Shown in pieces: positions 1,220 to 43,159 of a stretch of DNA of 64,000 nt; positions within the stretch are counted from its first letter, which is position 1; every line of letters begins with the position of its first letter. The notes under the pieces were generated by a model. It was not told where the DNA came from, made no database searches, and saw nothing but the letters and a program-made list of their open reading frames with translations. Position numbers and translations under genes: made by a program. The stretch comes from Actinomyces glycerinitolerans (GTDB lineage Bacteria > Actinomycetota > Actinomycetes > Actinomycetales > Actinomycetaceae), in assembly GCF_900098745.1 (NCBI RefSeq), contig NZ_FQTT01000001.1:62001-126000 (forward strand), read 5' to 3'.

Positions 1220-4200
1220 TCAAATGATTTCGAGTTGAGTCAGCCTGGCCCCGGTTGGGAATCGCAAGCTGACGGCCTCGACGTTATGTACCCCCGCCGG
1301 CGACGCAGGCAGCCCGATCACCCGCGTTTCCTCGGGCCAGCGAAATACCACCCGGCGTTTGACGGCCCCGGACCACGCCCCGTCTTCACGGACGGCTATT
1401 TCCACATCAACGCTGCCGGTTCCGGTTAGAGTGGCGACCCGTGCCACCTCAGGACGATCCAACTCCACCTCCAGTCGCGTGTCGGGCGGCAGCACGGTCT
1501 CGGTATCTGCAGAGTCGTCTACGAGAGCAACAGCCCCCGGCACTGTCGAACGCAGGTTCTCGGAGTGCGCCTTGTCCCGCTGATATTCGTGTTCGTCGCT
1601 GGTCATCGACAACCGGCGGTCGCCAAGCCCCCAACTGTGGGGTTGGGAGCAAACACGAACCAGGACATGCACGTCGGCGTGCAGTGTGGAGGCGTCTACT
1701 ACCGGAGCAGTGAGTGGGTGTCCGTTGACCTCGACGCCTGCGATGTACTTGCCATCACCCTCTCGGGTTATTGACAGGACACTGCCGTCACGGCGCGTCC
1801 AGCGCACAGAGGCCAGCTGCGGCGGGGTGACAACAAACTTCCCCGAACCCACGTCGAGCGGGTACAACCCCATGGCCACAAGGAGCCACCAGGCACTGAA
1901 CTCGCCGTTGTCCTCGTCTCCCGGCCACCCCTGCCCGATGCGTCCACCGTTGAATAGATAATCGAAAGCGTCAGTCAGGACCTCAGCGGCTCGATCGGGC
2001 CGATCGGAGTGCAGATACATGAAGGGCACATGGTGGGCAGGCTGATTCGAGACCGCGAACTGTCCCATGCCGATAGCCCGAGCCTCCGTCATCTCGTGGA
2101 GGATATGCCCGTAAGTCCCGCGTTGGGATACGGCCGCCTTCTCCGGATCTTGGAAGTAGTCATCAAGCTTTCTTCCCAGTGCGGCGGGCCCGCCCAGGGC
2201 GTTGGCCAGCCAGGCGGCGTCGTGAACCGGGGAGAAGGCCATTCCCCAGCCATTCGTTTCGGTGTATCCCCCGCCCCATTCACGAGGGTTGAAGTTCGCC
2301 GGGGCCACCTCCCACATACCGTCATCGCGGCGTTGACGGAGGAAACCGGAATCGGGATCGAAGAGGTTACGCCAACGCAGTGAGCGGTTGATGAAATAGA
2401 ACGCCTCTGCGAGCAGATCTGAACGCGCTTCCCCATCGGCGCGGTCGGCGAGTCGGCTCGCCCACCGCCCGATCGCAGCGTCGTCGATCGCATTTTGGAC
2501 CGTCCAGCTCAGAGCCTCTGGAGTGGAGGAGTCCACCCAATCGCGAAAGCGCGCCGTCCGATTGCCGGCTCGGCCGACCTCGGTATGAGCCGGCGGCGTC
2601 ATGGCGTTGCGCAGTGCGGACAGGTAGGCCACGTCCTGGTCGAAGTCGACGCCGTGTACGGCGGCGTCGGCGAAGATCACATCGGAATCCGTACCCACCA
2701 TGCAGTCGATGAACCCGGGAGCGACCCATCTCCCCATCCACTCGCCATCTCGAAACAGCTGCAGCATCCCGTTAAGCAGCTTCCCAGCGAGTCCCGGCAT
2801 CAGCAGGTGGTAGGCGGGCCAACTAGTCCGGTAGGTATCCCAGTACCCGTTGTTGACGTACAGCTCGCCGGGGAGCACCCGGCAACCGGTGACCGTGTCG
2901 GTGTGTTCACGCTCAAGCGGCAAAGCTACTGCTGCGTGCGCAATACGGGGCACGCGCTCACTCCCGGTGTTCTCGTGGGCGACATTGGGGTAGCACAGGA
3001 GCCGGTACAGGCTTGTATAGGCAGTCTCGCGTTGCTCCTCCGTGGCCCCGGGCAACTCGAGCGCGCCAAGTGGCTCCGCCCAGGCGGAGTGAGCTGCTTG
3101 GCGCAGGTCCTCGAAAGCGCGCCCCTCGGACTCGAGACTGAGGTTGTGCCAGGCCTGCTCCACTGAAATGAACGAGGTGGCCAGGCGAACCTCGTGCGTG
3201 CCCGCCGGCAGGGGAACGTGCGCAGCTTGGCTACGTACGTGACCGTCATCCTCAAACGCCGGAATCACCTCGCCTCCGCCATTGATCTCGCCGACGAAGA
3301 ACACGCGTGGTGGGCTGGGATGCGATGGACGAACAACGTTTCCAGGAGCCCAGCCATGCAGCAGAACCCCCGTATCGGTGACACTGGTGTGCAGGCGCCC
3401 GTCGAAGGCCTGGTCGACGGTGATCCCGCCGGCACACGGCAAACAGATGCGGACCGCCGCGGTGCGGGCAGTCGCTGTCATCTCCAGCTCGATGCCGCCG
3501 TCAAGGCGCACCCGATAGTAATCGGGATGGGTGATCTCCTCCTCATGGCTGAAACGTAGTGCCCGACGCTGCGGGTCCAACACCGGGGCGTGCACGTAGG
3601 GCATGATCTGCATGGAACCGCGGTCACCGATCCAGGGACTGGGCTGATGACTCAACGCGACGGCTTCTAGGCGTGGATTCGGATCCCCGTGCCAGCGATA
3701 GAGCCAGCGTCGGGTGCGGGCGTTGGTCACTGGAGTAACAAAGTTCATGCCGTGCGGCAGGCAGACCGCCGGCAGGGTGCTGCCACGGGAGAAACCACGA
3801 CCTGTATGAGTTCCCCTGGTGGTACGCACGTAGTCGACCACGTCCCGAGCTCTACGCGTCTGCGTGGAAGAGTCCCCGCCCACTACACGCGCCTGTATCC
3901 AACCGGCACCATGGTCCGCGAACGAGATCAGCCTCACCGCGCTGAGCGGCGTTCCGGACGGAAGAGCGTCGAGCGGTACTCGCCAGAGATTCCACTGCTC
4001 GGGGATCAGCGTTGTGGCAGCCAAGTGCGCAGGACGCGGTGGGGGCACGGCAGTCAGATCGTGCCCGTTGTCGTCACACAGGTGCCGGAGTGCGCCCCGT
4101 CCATCGTCCGCACCCACACCCAGCAGGGTGGATGCCCTATCTGGCGCACCATCGTGCTGCAAGAGCAGCTGAGGGAACAGGGCTACCTCGAGAATCTCCC

Positions 4201-9847: not shown

Positions 9848-9858
9848 GCCCGCTTACT

Positions 9859-9976
9859 GTCCGAGTTCGGGACAAACGCCGCCGGTGAGACCCGGACCGA
9901 ATCCAGAAACCGCATGATTCCAACGATCCCGAAAACGGAGATCGGCAAGACTGGATCGTTTGTCCCGGATTCGGAC
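9859..9976. repeat. family A intergenic element, copy 1 (118 bp)
   Basis: The element is bounded by imperfect 20-base inverted repeats at 9859-9878 (GTCCGAGTTCGGGACAAACG) and 9957-9976, which differ at only a couple of positions. The exact centre, 9909-9925, is ACCGCATGATTCCAACG, shared with the copies at 16920, 41838 and 42289. It sits between two convergent genes and ends six bases from the GH13 stop, so it could also act as a bidirectional terminator. No coding capacity is apparent. Confidence 0.8.
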
Positions 9977-9981
9977 AGTTC

Positions 9982-15339: not shown

Positions 15340-16500
15340 ATGGCCGACTCAAGCGCCCCGGCCGGGCCCGCATCGCTCTGGACCGCTCTCAGCGACACCC
15401 AGCGCGAGATCGTGCTGGCCCTACTGCGTTACGGGCGACTACTGCGCCCCGAGATCATGCGCATCGTCGGTATCTCCCCTGGCTCGGTCACCCGACTGAC
15501 GACACCGCTGGTAGAGGCCGGACTTCTCACCACGCACACACTGCAGGTGGCCGACACCGGGCGGCCGCAGTCCCCGCTTGAGGTACGCGCCGACGCCGAG
15601 TCCGTGGTGGGGGTTGGCCTGTCAACGAACTTGCTGACCGCGGTCCTGACCGACCTGCGCCTGGGCCTTCTCGCCACTGTGCGCCGCCCGCTTACGGGCC
15701 ACTCCCCCGCAGAGATCGTAACCGAGTTGGCCGCCGCGCTCACCGATCTCGCCGGCGCTGCCGCGGACGCCCCGCCGCCCTCCTGCCTGGGGATCAGCCT
15801 GGGCGGCACAGCGCGCGACGGGCGCACGGTGGACGAGGCCGTGTTCTACGGCTGGCACCGAGTGCCCCTGGCCGATTTCGTTGAGGCCCGGCTGGGCGTG
15901 CCGACCATTATCGGCAACGACCTGACCGCACTGACGCTGCGGGAGGCCTGGTTCGGAGTGGGACGGGAACACGGCCGCTTCAGCCTGCTCACGGTGGGTG
16001 CCGGCGTCGGCCATGGACTGGTAGTGGACGGCCAGGTCGTGACCAACGCCGACGCCGAGATGGGTCTACTGGGCATGGTGCCAGTGCCCGACGGCGCCCG
16101 GCCGGCCAGCGCCGCAGCGGCGATGGACTGCCTGACCAATGAGGCGATCGAACGCACCTGGGTGCAGCGCGGCCACGACTGGCTGGCGGCGGCGGACGTC
16201 GTCGAGCTGGCGACCGCTGGTGACGGCGACGCCGTGTCTCTATGCGCTTCCTACGCGCGCAGGCTGGGGCGCTTGCTGGGTATGGCCGCGGCGTTCACCC
16301 TGCCCGAGGTCGTGGTGGTTGCGGGCGAGCGCGCCGCCATCGCCACGCTCTTCGAGGACGAGGTGCAGCAGGGGATCGCCGCGGTGCGCCGTGCCAGCGC
16401 GACTCCGCTCGATGTGGTCGTGCGCGAGCACGACCGGCCCGAATGGGCCACCGGCGCTGCCGCCCTGGCCCTGCGCGCCCGAGTTCTGGGGCAGTTGTAA
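15340..16500 (+). CDS. ROK-family transcriptional regulator (NagC/XylR-like)
   Basis: Regulator with an N-terminal winged helix (residues about 15-80, SDTQREIVLALLRYGRLLRP and GSVTRLTTPLVEAGLL) fused to a ROK sugar-kinase fold (GISLGGTARDG, IIGNDLTALTLREAWFG, LLTVGAGVGHGLVVDG). The cysteine-rich zinc motif of classical ROK proteins is missing: the region after GHGLVVDGQ reads NADAEMGLLGMVPVPDG. This argues for a regulator that has lost or modified kinase activity. The ATG at 15340 gives 386 residues; GGAG lies only two bases upstream, so translation may be leaderless or weak. It probably controls the divergent importer at 12044-15195. Confidence 0.88.
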   Translation: MADSSAPAGPASLWTALSDTQREIVLALLRYGRLLRPEIMRIVGISPGSVTRLTTPLVEAGLLTTHTLQVADTGRPQSPLEVRADAESVVGVGLSTNLLTAVLTDLRLGLLATVRRPLTGHSPAEIVTELAAALTDLAGAAADAPPPSCLGISLGGTARDGRTVDEAVFYGWHRVPLADFVEARLGVPTIIGNDLTALTLREAWFGVGREHGRFSLLTVGAGVGHGLVVDGQVVTNADAEMGLLGMVPVPDGARPASAAAAMDCLTNEAIERTWVQRGHDWLAAADVVELATAGDGDAVSLCASYARRLGRLLGMAAAFTLPEVVVVAGERAAIATLFEDEVQQGIAAVRRASATPLDVVVREHDRPEWATGAAALALRARVLGQL

Positions 16501-16557
16501 ACGCGGCCGACCGCCCCAAAACGGGCCCTTCGTGTTTGGGGGGTGGTGGGCAAGAGC

Positions 16558-16670
16558 GTCTGCTACGCGGGTTAGACGTTAACAACGCTACTTAACGGTC
16601 TGCTGTATACCTCGGAGCCCTTCAGCAGACGGTTAACCGGCGTTGTTAACCCCGAAGTGGCGTTGCAGAC
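16558..16670 (+). repeat. family B palindromic element, copy 1 (113 bp)
   Basis: It begins GTCTGCTACGC and ends with GCGTTGCAGAC, nearly its complement. Inside are nested inverted repeats: GTTAACAACG against CGTTGTTAAC, then TTAACGGTCTGCTG against CAGCAGACGGTTAA (one mismatch), around a central TATACCTCGGAGCCCTT. The same 113 bases occur inverted at 42039-42151 with roughly ten differences. No reading frame is shared convincingly, so it is interpreted as a non-coding structured repeat. Confidence 0.85.
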
Positions 16671-16694
16671 GTCCCCGCTTCCGGGCATGGGTAT

Positions 16695-16786
16695 GTCGGC
16701 AGCCGACTCGGACGCGGGATGCCGGCGGCTGACTCGAGCACGGCCGGCAGCCGACTCGAGCACGGCCGGCGGCCGATTCCGGCACG
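16695..16786 (+). repeat. short tandem array, units of about 22 bp
   Basis: Units at 16721-16742, 16743-16764 and 16765-16786 share the pattern GCCGGCRGCYGAYTC followed by a CACG end. A longer, more diverged unit occupies 16695-16720. The spacing of 22 bases is exact for the last three. No known element type was recognised. Confidence 0.6.
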
Positions 16787-16919
16787 CCATGGTCAACGTG
16801 GATGCGGGCGACCTCAAACGGGCTTGTCTGTTTCGTGGGTGTGGGGGTGAGCGCTGCTGCCCTGGCATGTTGGGTGGTGGGTGTGGGCGCGCCCCCGGAC
16901 GCCCCGCCGGAGGCGGAAC

Positions 16920-17037
16920 GTCCAAATCCGGCACAAAGGCCGTCGACGACCGCAGGGGCCGAGTTTGAAACCGCATGATTCCAACGTTTTGCCTGCGGCT
17001 GCCGGCGACGTCAGAGTCGTTCATGCCGATCCTGGAC
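16920..17037. repeat. family A intergenic element, copy 2 (118 bp)
   Basis: Terminal inverted repeats are at 16920-16939 (GTCCAAATCCGGCACAAAGG) and 17018-17037, more degenerate than in copies 1 and 4. The centre, ACCGCATGATTCCAACG, is at 16970-16986, 50 bases from the left end exactly as in copy 1. The surrounding arm sequence is not conserved between copies. Confidence 0.75.
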
Positions 17038-17266
17038 ACTTTGGGCCGCCACGCACGGCACTCGGCGCCGACGGCGGGCCGCGAGTGGGCAGGCCGCCCG
17101 CGCACCCGACGTCACGCCGGAATCCAACACCACACCACTGGGAGCTGGTTTGCGTCTACCCAGCGACGACGTCCCCGTCGGCCCGAAAACGACCACTACA
17201 TCACAGCCCCGGCCCGAACCAAAACACCCGCAAACATGAAGAGCCCTGTAAGCGACGCCGCGTTCC

Positions 17267-38823: not shown

Positions 38824-41760
38824 TCAGAGCTTCTCGACCGGGGCGAGGCGCAGCATGAGGCGCTTAGTCGCCCGGGTACCGTCGATGATGAACTCCACGC
38901 GGGCGACGGTGGAGCGGCCCGTACCCTCGATGGCGATCACACTGCCCTCCCCGTAGGTCTTGTGCCGGACCCGGTCGCCGGTCTTGAGCCCGGTCACCGC
39001 CTCGGGCAGGGCGGACTGCGCGGACTCGGCCTCGGATTGCGCCGTGCCCAGGCGCACCGGCTTGCCGCGCGCCGCCAGGCGCTTGGCGCGGCGTGCCTCG
39101 GCCCGGTCCTTAGGAGTCTCGACCCGGCCCAGTTTCCCGGTGCGGGTGCGCCGCCCGGAGCCGATGGCGGGGGCGAAGTCGCCGTCGTCGTCGGGGGTCG
39201 CCTCACTGCTGCGCCCGTAGCCGCGGCGCGCGCCGAAGCCGCCCTCGTCCCAGGAGGCGCCCCAGCCGGTGCCGCCGCCGCGCAGCGCGTCCATGGAGGA
39301 GGCAATGCGCTTCCACTCGATCGTGTCTTCGGGGACGTCGTCGAGGAAGCGGGAGGGGGGCATGGCGGTGGCGGTGCCCCAGGCGGAGCGCACGGCGGCG
39401 CGGGTAAGGTACAGGCGCTCGCGGGCGCGCGTGACGGCCACGTAGGCCAGGCGGCGTTCCTCGGCCAGCTCGGTCTCGTCCGCCAGCGAGCGCGCGTGCG
39501 GGAAGGTGCCGTCCTCCAGCCCGGTGACGAACACGACCGGGAACTCCAGCCCCTTGGCGGTGTGCACCGTCATCAGGGTGACCTGGCCTTGCTCGCGGGC
39601 CTGGACCTCGGCCTGTTCCCGGTTCTCGGCCTGGTCGGCGACGTCGGCACTGGGGGGCAGCTGGTCGGAGTCGGCCACCAGCGAGACCCGCTCGAGGAAG
39701 TCGGCAAGCGTCCCGTCGGGGTTGGCGGCTTGGAAGTCGGAGGCGACGGCGTGCAACTCGGCCAGGTTCTCCACCCGGCTGGCGTCCTGCGGGTCGTCGC
39801 TGGCGCGCAGTTCCGCCAGGTAGCCGGAGGCGTCCAGGGCGGCGTCGAGGATGTCGGCCACGCCGTCGCCGGCGTCGCGCGAGTGCCGCAGGGAGGTGAG
39901 CAGCTCATGGAAGCCCGTCACCTGCCGGGTGGCGCGCGTCGTCAGCCCGACGACGGCGGGCGGCTCCGCGCCCTCGTCCTCCCCCGGGCGCGGGGCGCCG
40001 GCGGCGTCGGCCACGGCGGTGCCGAAGGAGACGGCGTAGCGGGCGGCATGCTCGGCCAGGGCGGCCTCGGCCTTGTCCCCCAGGCCCCGCTTGGGGACGT
40101 TCAGGACGCGGCGGATGGAGACGTCGTCGTCGGGGTTGTCGACGGCGCGCAGGTAGGCGATGGCGTCCTTGACCTCGCGCCGCTCGTAGAAGCGGGTGCC
40201 GCCAACCACCTTGTAGGGCTGGCCGGAGCGGACGAAGGCCTCCTCCAGCGCCCGGGACTGGGCGTTGGTGCGGTAGAAGATGGCGACGTCTCGCGGGCGA
40301 ATGCCGCACTCGTCGGCGAGCCGGTCGATCTCGGAGCTGATCCAGCGGGCCTCGTCGTGCTCGGAGTCGGCAACGTAGCCGATGATCTTGGGGCCGTCGC
40401 CGGAGGCGGTCCACAGGTTCTTCTCCCGGCGCCCGGTGTTGCGGGCGATCACCGCGTTGGCGGCGGACAGGATGTTCTGGGTGGAGCGGTAGTTCTGCTC
40501 CAGCAGGATCGTGCGCGCGCTGGGGTAGTCCTGCTCGAACTCCTCAATGTTGCGGATGGTGGCCCCGCGGAAGGCGTAGATGGACTGGTCCGAGTCGCCC
40601 ACCACGGTCAGCTCGCCCGGTGGGACGGGCGAGTCGGCACCGGAGGTGCCGGGCCCGCCCACCAGTTCGCGCACGAGCACGTACTGGGCGTGGTTGGTGT
40701 CCTGGTACTCGTCGACGAGCACGTGCCGGAAGCGGCGCCGGTACATCTCCGCCACCGCCGGCTTGGCCTGCAGCAGCTGCACGGTGCGCATGATCAGATC
40801 GTCGAAGTCCAGGGCGTTGGCGGCGACCAGTCGGCGCGCGTAGGCGCTGTAGACCTCGGTCAGGTGTCGCTCGAAGGGGTTGGAGGTCACGGCACGCTCG
40901 GCGAACTCCGCCGGGGTGATCAGCTCGTTCTTCAGGTCGGAGATGCGGGCGGCGAAGGTTTTGGGGGTGAAGCGCTTGGGGTCAATGCCGAGCTCGCGCA
41001 CGATCAGGGTGATCAGACGGGTGGAGTCGGCGGCGTCGTAGATGGAGAAGGTGGAGCGCAGCCCGGCGGCGTCGTGCTCGCGGCGCAGGATGCGCACGCA
41101 TGCGGAGTGGAAGGTGGACACCCACATGCGCTCCCCCGCGGGCCCCACCAGGCCGGCCACGCGCTCGCGCATCTCTGCGGCGGCCTTGTTGGTGAAGGTG
41201 ATGGCGAGGATCTCGCCGGGGCGGGCGCGGCCAGTGGCCAGCAGGTAGGCGATGCGGTGGGTCAGTACCCGGGTCTTGCCGCTGCCAGCGCCGGCGATGA
41301 TCAGCAGCGGCGAGCCCGCGTGGGTGACGGCCTGCTCCTGGGCGGGGTTGAGTCCGGCGAGCAGCTCGGCGGGGTCCGCGACGGTGATGCCGTAGCGGGG
41401 CGGGGCGCCGGGGCCGCCCGCCGCACCCGCGGCGCTGCCGTCCACGCCGGCGCGGGCGCGCGCGGCCGCGGCGTTGGCCTGGGCACGGGCGACAAGAGCC
41501 GAGACCTCTGCCTGACGCTCCTCCCAGGTGGGGGCGACCGCGGCCTCATCGGCAGCCGAGGGGGCGGAGGTCTCCTCGTCGGGGCCGTAAGCAGCCAGAT
41601 CCTCCTCGGCGGGAGGCTCGACGTCGGCCCACGAGTCGTCGTCCCAGGCGGCACCGGCCGGGTCGAGCGAGGGCAGGGCGGCCTCCGGCGGAGGCGTGGC
41701 CTCGGAGCCGGAACCGGGCATGGGCAGTGCGCCGAAGAGGGCGTTCATCGCGTCGTTCAT
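38824..41760 (-). CDS. pcrA: ATP-dependent DNA helicase PcrA/UvrD
   Basis: Superfamily 1A 3'-5' helicase used in nucleotide excision repair and in clearing replication blocks. From the ATG at 41760 it has 978 residues, longer than typical PcrA because of a roughly 125-residue acidic, low-complexity N terminus before the helicase core. Motifs seen: LLIIAGAGSGKTRVLTHRIA (Walker A), AITFTNKAAAEMRERV, VDEYQDTNHAQ (Walker B), VVGDSDQSIYAFRGA, LEQNYRST and TVHTAKGLEFPVVF. The C-terminal GDRVRHKTYGEGSVI is the Tudor-like domain that binds RNA polymerase in Gram-positive PcrA. No strong Shine-Dalgarno marks the start, and an ATG at 41748 is an alternative. Confidence 0.94.
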   Translation of the reverse strand: MNDAMNALFGALPMPGSGSEATPPPEAALPSLDPAGAAWDDDSWADVEPPAEEDLAAYGPDEETSAPSAADEAAVAPTWEERQAEVSALVARAQANAAAARARAGVDGSAAGAAGGPGAPPRYGITVADPAELLAGLNPAQEQAVTHAGSPLLIIAGAGSGKTRVLTHRIAYLLATGRARPGEILAITFTNKAAAEMRERVAGLVGPAGERMWVSTFHSACVRILRREHDAAGLRSTFSIYDAADSTRLITLIVRELGIDPKRFTPKTFAARISDLKNELITPAEFAERAVTSNPFERHLTEVYSAYARRLVAANALDFDDLIMRTVQLLQAKPAVAEMYRRRFRHVLVDEYQDTNHAQYVLVRELVGGPGTSGADSPVPPGELTVVGDSDQSIYAFRGATIRNIEEFEQDYPSARTILLEQNYRSTQNILSAANAVIARNTGRREKNLWTASGDGPKIIGYVADSEHDEARWISSEIDRLADECGIRPRDVAIFYRTNAQSRALEEAFVRSGQPYKVVGGTRFYERREVKDAIAYLRAVDNPDDDVSIRRVLNVPKRGLGDKAEAALAEHAARYAVSFGTAVADAAGAPRPGEDEGAEPPAVVGLTTRATRQVTGFHELLTSLRHSRDAGDGVADILDAALDASGYLAELRASDDPQDASRVENLAELHAVASDFQAANPDGTLADFLERVSLVADSDQLPPSADVADQAENREQAEVQAREQGQVTLMTVHTAKGLEFPVVFVTGLEDGTFPHARSLADETELAEERRLAYVAVTRARERLYLTRAAVRSAWGTATAMPPSRFLDDVPEDTIEWKRIASSMDALRGGGTGWGASWDEGGFGARRGYGRSSEATPDDDGDFAPAIGSGRRTRTGKLGRVETPKDRAEARRAKRLAARGKPVRLGTAQSEAESAQSALPEAVTGLKTGDRVRHKTYGEGSVIAIEGTGRSTVARVEFIIDGTRATKRLMLRLAPVEKL

Positions 41761-41837
41761 CTCGGGGCCAAGCCTAGACGATTTGCTGCCCTGCCCCGGC
41801 TGCTGTCCGTGGTAACCGTGCCGACAGCCTTGAAACT

Positions 41838-41955
41838 GTCCAAGACTGGCACGAACGCCGCCGCCTGGAGCCGCCACACCCGACGAAACCGCAGAATACC
41901 AACGATCTGCTAGGTGCCACTCGCCGTCTCAGACTCCTTTATGCCGATCTCGGAC
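41838..41955. repeat. family A intergenic element, copy 3 (118 bp)
   Basis: The terminal repeats at 41838-41857 (GTCCAAGACTGGCACGAACG) and 41936-41955 are the most degenerate of the four pairs. The centre at 41888-41904 reads ACCGCAGAATACCAACG, two changes from the other copies, again exactly 50 bases from the left end. It is the oldest-looking copy. Confidence 0.7.
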
Positions 41956-42038
41956 ATTTCCCACCGCCGTCCGTTGCCGGGTCAGTTCACCGCGCCGGGG
42001 TTGACTGCCCGCGCCTCCCAGGGACCGATGGTGAGGCC

Positions 42039-42151
42039 ATCTGCTACGCCACTTCGGGGTTAACAACGCCTGTTAACGGTCTGCTGAAGGGCTCCGAGGT
42101 ATACAGCAGAGCGTTAAGTAGCGTTGTTAACGCCCAACCGGCGTAGCTGAC
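42039..42151 (-). repeat. family B palindromic element, copy 2 (113 bp)
   Basis: Inverted relative to the copy at 16558-16670 and the same length. It keeps the GTTAACAACG/CGTTGTTAAC pair, the CTGCTG/CAGCAG inner stem and the CCTCGGAGCCCTT loop. Differences from copy 1 are few and scattered. The inner stem has one mismatch, at a position adjacent to the mismatch in copy 1. Confidence 0.85.
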
Positions 42152-42288
42152 AGCCCCTTCCTTTCTTCGGGTAAGGAGGGATGGCGGGCCAACGTGTGGG
42201 TGGGATGCTGAGCTGTCTGCCCGCGGGCGTGCTGGCAGCAACCGACTTGCCGTCGGCCCGCATATCGCTGTGGATGGTGGCCCAGAGT

Positions 42289-42407
42289 GTCACCAGTCGG
42301 GACAAACGAGCCTTAACACCCGCCGGGGGTGATCCGGCACCCGCATGATTCCAACGTTTCGCTCACGGCCGCCGGCACCGCCGGACTCGTTTGTCCCGAA
42401 TCATGAC
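42289..42407. repeat. family A intergenic element, copy 4 (119 bp)
   Basis: Terminal repeats at 42289-42308 and 42388-42407 share TCGGGACAAACG exactly, and the pairing extends inward by AG/CT. The centre is CCGCATGATTCCAACG at 42341-42356. It is one base longer than the other copies. With copy 1 it is the best preserved. Confidence 0.8.
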
Positions 42408-42601
42408 AATCACCCCCTTGGTGGCTCTCGGGCTTGGTCAAGTTTCTTGGCGTGTTTCGGTGACGGATAGTCAGGCAGTATCTCGCCCCACCGCGCACAC
42501 CCCCCATACCGGAAGAACCGGTAATCCCGGCCTGGCACAGACCACCAAGCGAGCAGTCTTGAGTATCAGGACACCGGCACCGTCATCCGTTGAGCAAAGC
42601 G

Positions 42602-42644
42602 ACGGCTGAGCCCGCCCTCGAAATCGGGGGGCGGGCTCAGCCGT
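42602..42644 (-). terminator. strong hairpin terminator downstream of the SnoaL-like gene
   Basis: ACGGCTGAGCCCGCCC (42602-42617) and its exact complement (42629-42644) make a 16-bp stem with an 11-base loop, 23 bases past the stop codon at 42668. It should end the three-gene transcript that begins at 44499. Confidence 0.75.
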
Positions 42645-42667
42645 AGCCGCATCGCGAGTAGTGCGCG

Positions 42668-43096
42668 TCAGTTGTCGCTCGTCTGAGAGATCACGAAGTG
42701 CTGCTCACGGCGGCTGATGCGCCAGACGCCGTCACGCAGAACCAGGGTGTCGATGTAGCGGATCGAATGGGATAGGAGCACGTCCTTGCCGTCCTGCTCC
42801 TGGACGAGCAGGGCCTGCCCGTAGTGGACGTCGGTGGCGGTGTCGCCGTCGATCGTGATGACCTGCTGGCCGTTGATGTGGAAGGAGGTCTTAACGGCGG
42901 CCATGGCGGCTCCGAAGAGCTCGACCAGCTGGTCGGCACCGTCGAACTCCATCATCTTCGAGCCGTCGGCGTTGTACACCTCGACGTGCGTGTCCGGGGT
43001 GAACAGCTTGGACTGCTCGGCGACGTCGATCTCCAGGTTGGAGAAGCGGTCGATGACCTCGCGGATGGCGTCCTTGTGCTCGAGTTCGGTGGGCAT
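42668..43096 (-). CDS. SnoaL-like / NTF2-fold protein
   Basis: A 142-residue protein with the pattern of SnoaL-like or DUF4440 proteins of the NTF2 fold: an N-terminal helix pair (HKDAIREVIDRFSNLEIDVAEQ), TPDTHVEVYNADG, then strands ending RIDTLVLRDGVWRISRREQHF-type sequence (here RYIDTLVLRDGVWRI). Such proteins are ketosteroid-isomerase-like enzymes or ligand-binding proteins of varied function. The ATG at 43096 has only a weak Shine-Dalgarno. It is the last gene of a cassette with a reductase and an acetyltransferase. No specific activity can be assigned. Confidence 0.75.
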   Translation of the reverse strand: MPTELEHKDAIREVIDRFSNLEIDVAEQSKLFTPDTHVEVYNADGSKMMEFDGADQLVELFGAAMAAVKTSFHINGQQVITIDGDTATDVHYGQALLVQEQDGKDVLLSHSIRYIDTLVLRDGVWRISRREQHFVISQTSDN

Positions 43097-43159
43097 GAGT
43101 GTTCTCACTTTCTCAGGGTGGTTCGGGTTGAGGCTGCGCGGCATGGGTCGACCGCTCGG

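Follow-up and report, generated by a model that had tools for sequence, protein, structure and literature searches.

Palindromic repeats A and B of an Actinomyces genome, probably carried in part by ISL3-like non-autonomous elements

Short palindromic intergenic repeats such as ERIC, Correia/NEMIS and REP occur in tens of copies and in either orientation. The two repeat families considered here, A and B, are non-coding and not related to each other. They can be likened to such repeats by description, being short, palindromic, intergenic and present in tens of copies. They depart from those descriptions in that A has an off-centre core and arms that change in step, while B is built of inverted 20-bp units.

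Two described mobile systems are closest to the third repeat of this study, C, whose ends bracket many A and B copies. ISArsp7, an ISL3-family element of Arthrobacter, is tabulated with the ends GGCTCTTCGCGGTTGGTGGTGAAT and GGCTCTTCGCGTTTCGTGGTGAAT and an 8-bp direct repeat (PMC6305408 Table 3), and is presented as a typical insertion sequence of 1451 bp carrying only a transposase gene (PMC6305408). C elements agree with this entry in ends that begin GGCTCTTC, in a common GTTT step and in an 8-bp duplication, and differ from it in their length (240-1110 bp), in having no recognisable gene and in carrying palindromic repeats (PMC6305408). TIMEs and TIME-COMP are Tn3-derived miniature elements of Pseudomonas whose mobility is reported there as shown by experiment (PMC4133298). 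C elements resemble them, as far as that account goes, in being non-autonomous, moved in trans and assembled into mosaic composites from two copies, a mobility that we infer here (PMC4133298). TIMEs are described with Tn3-type ends and 5- or 6-bp duplications, whereas C elements have ISL3-type ends and 8-bp duplications (PMC4133298). In the open-licence literature nothing was found on Actinomyces palindromic intergenic repeats or A. oris MITEs, and, judged by title, no open-licence article on Actinomyces ISL3 transposases dealt with these elements.

The reading that we favour, with a probability of roughly 0.78, is that A and B are neighbours in part as cargo of ISL3-like non-autonomous C elements and not as partners of each other. 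Under it, a repeat cluster that had no explanation becomes a mobile-element model that can be tested, and the cluster resembles a small heap of mobile DNA, not a new genetic system in itself.

Distribution of families A and B

The DNA analysed, here called the window, is a stretch of 64,000 nucleotides (positions 62001-126000 of contig C7) from a genome of 3.70 Mb (G000, the own genome). An earlier note had described four A and two B copies in it, and unfiltered covariance-model scans of the whole window, with models built from 16 A copies and 22 B copies, recovered all six where the note had placed them. A copy 1 (9857-9980, plus strand, 84.1 bits) fills the gap between two convergent genes, with margins of 9 and 1 bp; in the relative G029 the orthologous place also has an A, and directly behind it come about 2 kb of extra DNA (G029 C1:1261012-1263013). 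The first cluster consists of B copy 1, a palindrome (16551-16678, minus strand, 145.7 bits), and A copy 2, of the GGCAC-arm type (16918-17041, plus strand, 131.5 bits). The second holds, all on the plus strand, the degenerate A copy 3 (41836-41959, 59.6 bits), B copy 2 (42031-42158, 147.7 bits) and A copy 4, of the GGGAC-arm type (42287-42411, 120.8 bits), which matches C9:69177-69389 at 80%. After these copies the next match has an E value of 0.24 for the A model, reverse-strand echoes of the same places aside, and of 0.18 for the B model.

The arrangement is also as had been claimed: A-B-A within 41836-42411 and B-A within 16551-17041, with three of the four A copies less than 350 bp from a B copy (gaps of 71, 128 and 239 bp). 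Both clusters occupy long intergenic gaps, 41761-42667 (907 bp) and from about 16500 to 17266. The tandem array said to lie between B and A in the latter is present, as a weak one at 16697-16776, with a short array of 2.5 copies of a 22-bp unit at 16721-16776. Gene calls come from a simple gene finder of our own; it overlooked the ORF with a ROK match that ends at about 16500 and borders the B-A gap.

In the whole own genome the models found at least 51 A and at least 40 B places; these counts are lower bounds, since only 150 of 7658 first-look A candidates and 150 of 1427 B candidates were scored, and they include weak matches, down to 19 bits for A and 27 bits for B. The A model misses variants with other arms. 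Two copies of one of these, A2, which combines the A core with unrelated arms TGTCACAGATTGCACCACTTT and occurs twice in G000 and twice in G029, were recovered by the core alone. In a 464-kb sample (the window and two blocks of contig C9), 14% of which is intergenic according to our gene finder, 10 of 10 A and 10 of 10 B copies are intergenic. Over the whole set, weak gene predictions contain 2 of the 51 A copies; for 2 A and 3 B copies a gene call is absent on one side, so that they cannot be placed relative to genes. Rfam 15 gave no match at gathering score across the window and nothing near threshold at the 16.5-kb and 41.8-kb sites, and a known RNA family was rejected for A and B on the absence of such a match in the window. 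Masking the A, B and C families would help Actinomyces annotation and repeat-based typing.

The earlier note had offered two explanations, that both families prefer the same permissive gaps or that they form a composite unit, and had proposed a count of A-B distances against random placement among intergenic regions. This count gives no genome-wide excess. Three A-B pairs lie within 400 bp of each other in the genome, all of them inside the window, compared with 0.57 expected under uniform placement over the genome and 3.6 under random placement of 51 A and 40 B copies in intergenic gaps (P of three or more pairs, 0.68). When only the best 17 A and the best 22 B copies are considered, 2 pairs in 2 gaps are observed against 0.65 expected, with a probability of two or more such gaps of 0.12, or 0.22 for gaps of at least 300 bp only; for the window alone, the probability of three or more pairs is about 0.09. 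The two A2 copies each lie within about 350 bp of a B copy, and counting them brings the close pairs to five. Among 41 genomes of the genus, the own genome included, A was matched in 26 and B in 12: nine genomes have both, 17 A only, three B only and 12 neither. Since there is no excess of pairs over gap placement, and since A-only and B-only genomes exist, A and B are separate families without demonstrable mutual attraction.

Preference for the same permissive gaps fits these genome-wide numbers, with 20 of 20 sampled copies intergenic and no pair excess over gap placement. The same numbers, together with the A-only and B-only genomes, are what one would expect if two independent families had accumulated in a few long gene-free gaps by coincidence and nothing linked them. 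We nevertheless regard coincidence as unlikely: C ends mark the gaps with A or B far above other gaps, B and an A variant are joined in an element that has a perfect duplication and of which a nearly identical copy exists, and the B-A block of 16.5-17.2 kb recurs collinearly at a non-orthologous site, which contradicts coincidence there.

An obligate two-part unit, such as a site for recombination or regulation that works only with A and B together, would account for the close pairs at the two window sites and, among the matches listed, for those at G029 C1:3166059/3166540, G012 C22:21389/21747 and G038 C15:197663/197893. Against it, 48 of the 51 A copies have no B within 400 bp, 17 of the 26 A-bearing genomes have no B match, and the arrangement varies, from B on the minus strand followed by A on the plus strand at 16.5 kb to three plus-strand copies, A, B and A, at 41.8 kb. 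Joint carriage by C elements also follows independence: among 24 C elements of the own genome, seven hold A (two of them as the A2 variant) and 14 hold B, and the two occur together in three, with 4.1 expected from chance combination. Such an obligate unit is highly improbable and was rejected on the genome-wide independence and on the distribution among the 41 genomes.

Ends and target duplications of C elements

C was discovered at the ends of a block in which the 16.5-17.2 kb region aligns with a locus of the relative G012 (L271). These ends carry GGCTCTTCCGGTTTGGGG in inverted orientation, and a scan for this sequence revealed paired ends around many A and B copies. The repeat is a 27-bp terminal inverted repeat with the profile consensus GGCTCTTCCGGTTTGGGGGTGTGGTGG, and its ends bracket apparently gene-less elements of 240-1110 bp that are located between genes and enclose A, B, both or neither. 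The profile has 42 entries (41 distinct ends, one entered twice), mostly ends near A or B, and its training set includes the two outer ends of the window, 16524 and 17245. In the window it exceeds 8 bits at four places only: 16524, 16821, 17245 and 42519.

The 464-kb sample, which was not chosen for C, has 27 C ends of at least 15 bits, all of them intergenic. They are found in 10 of 17 gaps with A or B versus 3 of 130 other gaps of at least 130 bp (Fisher P 5e-9), an enrichment favoured by the training of the profile mostly on ends near A or B. When gaps of at least 300 bp are compared, the numbers are 9 of 13 versus 3 of 41 (P 2e-5). Thus, the proximity of A and B by itself is not significant; the C ends that they share are.

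Target duplications were sought as identical 8-bp flanks. In 749 kb sampled from the own genome, 5 of 29 candidate end-pairs have them, against a shuffled expectation of 0.23; among the 24 without a perfect duplication, one has 7/8 and three have 6/8 identity. The five are C3:183265 and C9:879, each enclosing B, C4:106879, enclosing B and an A variant, C19:387219, enclosing A, and C9:389612, enclosing neither. A further perfect duplication, at C4:19597-19881, stands outside the five, having been scored one base out of register. Loci of relatives, which were outside the profile training, gave 6 perfect duplications in 28 end-pairs, with 0.42 expected, while 22 had no perfect duplication, two of which reach 7/8. 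The pair counts include nested alternatives, and the 28 pairs count two loci twice, neither of which is among the six perfect ones. One B-bearing element is orthologous in the own genome (C7:21791) and in G029 (1302870), and its duplication is perfect in G029 and 6/8 in G000. The comparison with G029 gave no clean empty site, since intergenic DNA is too diverged from that genome.

Our gene finder called no gene inside seven C regions. Nine of the 21 ORFs of at least 100 amino acids that overlap four C elements were scanned against Pfam; none matched above the cut-off, and the two sub-threshold matches were both to unrelated families. The ISL3 transposase family PF01610 gave no match in the own genome, with a control that was positive in 4 of 14 genomes. 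The C elements thus appear, by their ends and duplications, to be ISL3-like and non-autonomous; their mobilisation in trans is only surmised, since the genome gave no PF01610 match. The transposase that mobilises them in trans would be one of the ISL3 family able to recognise their ends, and it may by now be lost from, or go unrecognised in, the own genome. Although no ISL3 transposase is detectable in it, the genome has, in the examined fifth, some two dozen ISL3-ended elements that appear to be without genes.

An end-pair of at least 15 bits encloses just 5 of the 51 A and 13 of the 40 B copies, so C leaves most A copies unaccounted for; a C end lies within 700 bp of 18 of 51 A and 24 of 40 B copies. 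Since both families also occur outside recognised C elements, A and B each have a history of their own. In the Actinomyces genomes G003 and G026, where A was matched and B was not, loci without a C end (L240, L241) hold A copies whose 18-bp arms are perfectly complementary; A can thus exist there without C.

Two C elements, C9:418469-418773 and C9:418779-419083, lie 5 bp apart, neither with a preserved duplication, and may serve as a model of the way in which two elements come to abut. Elements placed side by side in this manner (as at C9:418469-419083) could move on as one via their outermost ends. The interiors of C elements have palindromic modules in common, and two neighbouring elements seem capable of joint movement. 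Interiors such as those of C3:124635-125712, C9:389612-390490 and C7:21791-22809 were also seen to hold other short repeat modules: direct copies of GGACATCGGTGACA (four at most), TTGGACC motifs and GGTCGTGCA, each on both strands, and a series of GGACGTCTTCGGGC.

The two clusters of the window

At the 16.5-kb site B and A are enclosed by one pair of ISL3-like terminal repeats, and here the composite-unit explanation of the earlier note holds in part. The outermost C ends, a left one at 16524-16550 (plus strand, 26.3 bits) and a right one at 17219-17245 (minus strand, 33.9 bits), both of them training ends, delimit an ISL3-type, apparently non-autonomous element of 722 bp (16524-17245). An internal C end at 16821-16847 (plus strand, 17.0 bits), which was not a training end, marks the start of the A-bearing half, and the element is probably a B-type and an A-type element abutting at about 16821. 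About 612 bp of the block are collinear with L271:2362-2970 of G012 (75% over 630 columns). This locus is the orthologue not of the window site but of C9:136102 in the own genome, the genes beside the two having 91 and 94% protein identity, and C9:136102 itself holds the B half, closed by a right end of its own, and lacks A. Joint movement of two adjacent elements via their outermost ends would generate the B-A composite of 16524-17245. A and B are not bound together by it, as the joint carriage among C elements given above indicates.

Other elements are of the same composite sort. C4:106879-107833 (955 bp) has the duplication GATAATCG on both sides and holds B and A2, and C9:191752-192688 is a 95% full-length copy of it, also with B and A2, whose duplication is not preserved. 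In G029, the element at 1155863-1156595, with the perfect duplication CGATTACC, contains an A2 core together with a B match of 71 bits (L307:15944-16071), and that at 1022999-1023957, with the perfect duplication CGTTAAGG, holds an A2 core and B matches at L301:3066-3190 (50 bits) and 3214-3341 (37 bits). The window element belongs to this composite sort but appears older, since its flanks do not match (3/8 for the outer pair); the duplication is not preserved for the inner pair either (4/8).

The A-B-A gap is flanked by two minus-strand genes, one for a UvrD/REP-type helicase (38824-41760; PF00580 and PF13361 on the ORF 38824-41877) and one for a SnoaL-like protein (42668-43144; PF13577). Judged by the helicase gene, the nearest named relatives are the Actinomyces species A. 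urogenitalis, A. oris, sp. oral taxon 448 and A. gerencseriae (in the best segment, 76-79% identity of amino acids). Beyond A copy 4 lies a right C end (42493-42519, minus strand, 16.2 bits, not a training end), for which the only left partner is a faint one at 42153 (3.8 bits). G012 and G038 have C elements in the orthologous gap whose interiors match, in opposite orientation, B copy 2 and its flank 41985-42030; B copy 2 retains about 50 bp of C interior on one side. Among eight relatives, the orthologous gap has a C end-pair around B in three (G012, G038 and G029), each time with B oriented opposite to that of the window, and in G005 it has a C end-pair without B; the corresponding stretches of G003, G014, G017 and G021 gave no C end. 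Weak A matches (33-36 bits) lie in the gap of G005, G012 and G038; G014 has an A upstream of the helicase gene (44 bits) and G029 a degenerate A match only.

The simplest reading of 41836-42519 is an eroded, rearranged pile-up and not an intact unit, so that the composite proposed for 41838-42407 does not stand as one intact composite. It would be an older pile-up, in a gap that contains a B-carrying C element in three of the eight relatives. In the same gap, at 42604-42645, the 3′ end of the SnoaL-like gene is closely followed by a strong GC-rich hairpin whose stem is terminator-like by eye.

Hairpin structure of families A and B

Family A is the cleaner puzzle, with its near-fixed length, conserved core and step-wise arm replacement. 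It is about 122 bp long (46 of 51 model matches are 124-125 nt), with a strongly conserved, off-centre and asymmetric core, CCGCATGATTYCAACG, and arms of the GGCAC, GGGAC, ATGAC and GTGAC types. By eye, family B reads as a palindrome in which inverted 20-bp units surround a short core, and its 34 standard-length copies align without gaps. The A alignment used 44 of 51 matches, three of less than 41 bits and four of 115, 122, 123 and 127 nt being dropped, and the B alignment 34 of 40, without four of less than 45 bits and two of 118 and 126 nt; the near gap-free look of both is therefore partly a matter of selection. Both families fold far better than shuffled sequences (z of -8.0 for B and -4.3 for A).

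The covariation differs. For B, 77.3% of cells are paired versus 76.3% in shuffles, a weak signal, so that its pairing is mostly one of fixed bases. In the A arms, with 21 pairs compared over 43 distinct copies, paired cells make up 84.5%, compared with 30-45% when the arms are slid against each other, and 96 cells are double-changed versus 54 in shuffles, which ignore relatedness; two of five measures (pairs with a double change and further pair types) are not above shuffles. The arms fall into discrete types, e.g., G-C in 21 and C-G in 20 copies at one pair. In pairs 12-15, where about half of the double changes lie, one-sided changes, the G-U route, are nearly absent.

Strong folding and covarying A arms would also be expected of transcript-level hairpins, bidirectional terminators or mRNA stabilisers, kept by selection and clustered where the genes need them, and some convergent gene pairs leave between them just the room that an A copy needs (margins of 9 and 1, or 16 and 15 bp). 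Yet convergent gaps contain just 14 of 51 A and 11 of 40 B copies, orthologous gaps gain and lose copies, and the near absence of one-sided changes in pairs 12-15 does not fit this account. Between genes of the same direction, A lies 14 times in sense and 12 times in antisense, although its core is asymmetric, and B 10 and 12 times. Since there is no strand preference, no RNA-level reading is needed, and we consider hairpins acting in transcripts improbable; carriage of A and B in part by C elements remains our preferred reading.

The evidence on A argues for recognition at the DNA level over an RNA role. A search of the entire own genome for the arm pattern TGTCNNNATNNNNNACAAACG, with at most one mismatch, gave 54 matches, each of them within one of the 51 A places, and none for a reversed-pattern control. 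A looser scan of 749 kb gave 12 arm-like sites outside A, one of them convincing (C19:343463, 28 bits). Orthologous A copies of different arm types were seen at C9:234899 (GGCAC) and at G029 C1:1041638-1041761 (ATGAC), each largely self-complementary, as would follow from either whole-arm replacement or independent gain. In 79 genomes sampled across the order, three of which, the own genome included, belong to the genus, A was matched in two, both in the genus, and the 76 sampled outside the genus gave no match. It is possible, if doubtful, that A is a new, genus-specific DNA hairpin element, read in folded or paired form by a recombinase or transposase that recognises the core and needs pairing arms; in favour of this are the covariation, the absence of the common arms elsewhere in the genome and the orthologous A with a different arm type. 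If so, one A core family serves several arm specificities.

Other candidates for A and B were tried. No full-length transposon with A's own arms was found at this sensitivity, no match to TGTCNNNATNNNNNACAAACG lying on a longer element. For A as an independent MITE with TGTC...GACA terminal repeats, a target duplication was not seen by eye. Readings as site-specific attC-like and dif-like sites were dropped, as the box consensus of such sites did not fit. Carriage of A by phages was rejected: 15 viral-contig matches to the arm spacing are taken as chance, since none has the A core (at most three mismatches) between the arms, and viral contigs gave no matches to the B and C patterns.

Three near-identical B copies, C3:51231, 60598 and 62424, have differing flanks, with no duplication visible by eye. 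Copies of a B subfamily are grouped in threes or fours about a type ISP restriction-modification gene and its neighbours (L055:3232-14552, C3:51231-62551), genes having been scanned in G000 only, and the same subfamily clusters in G012 and at orthologous places in G029 (L276, L277). At C11:30217-31446 (L125:7349-8578) one gene lies between two A copies of 124 bp that are identical and in direct orientation; at C14:331064-332305 the two A copies around a gene of similar appearance are oppositely oriented.
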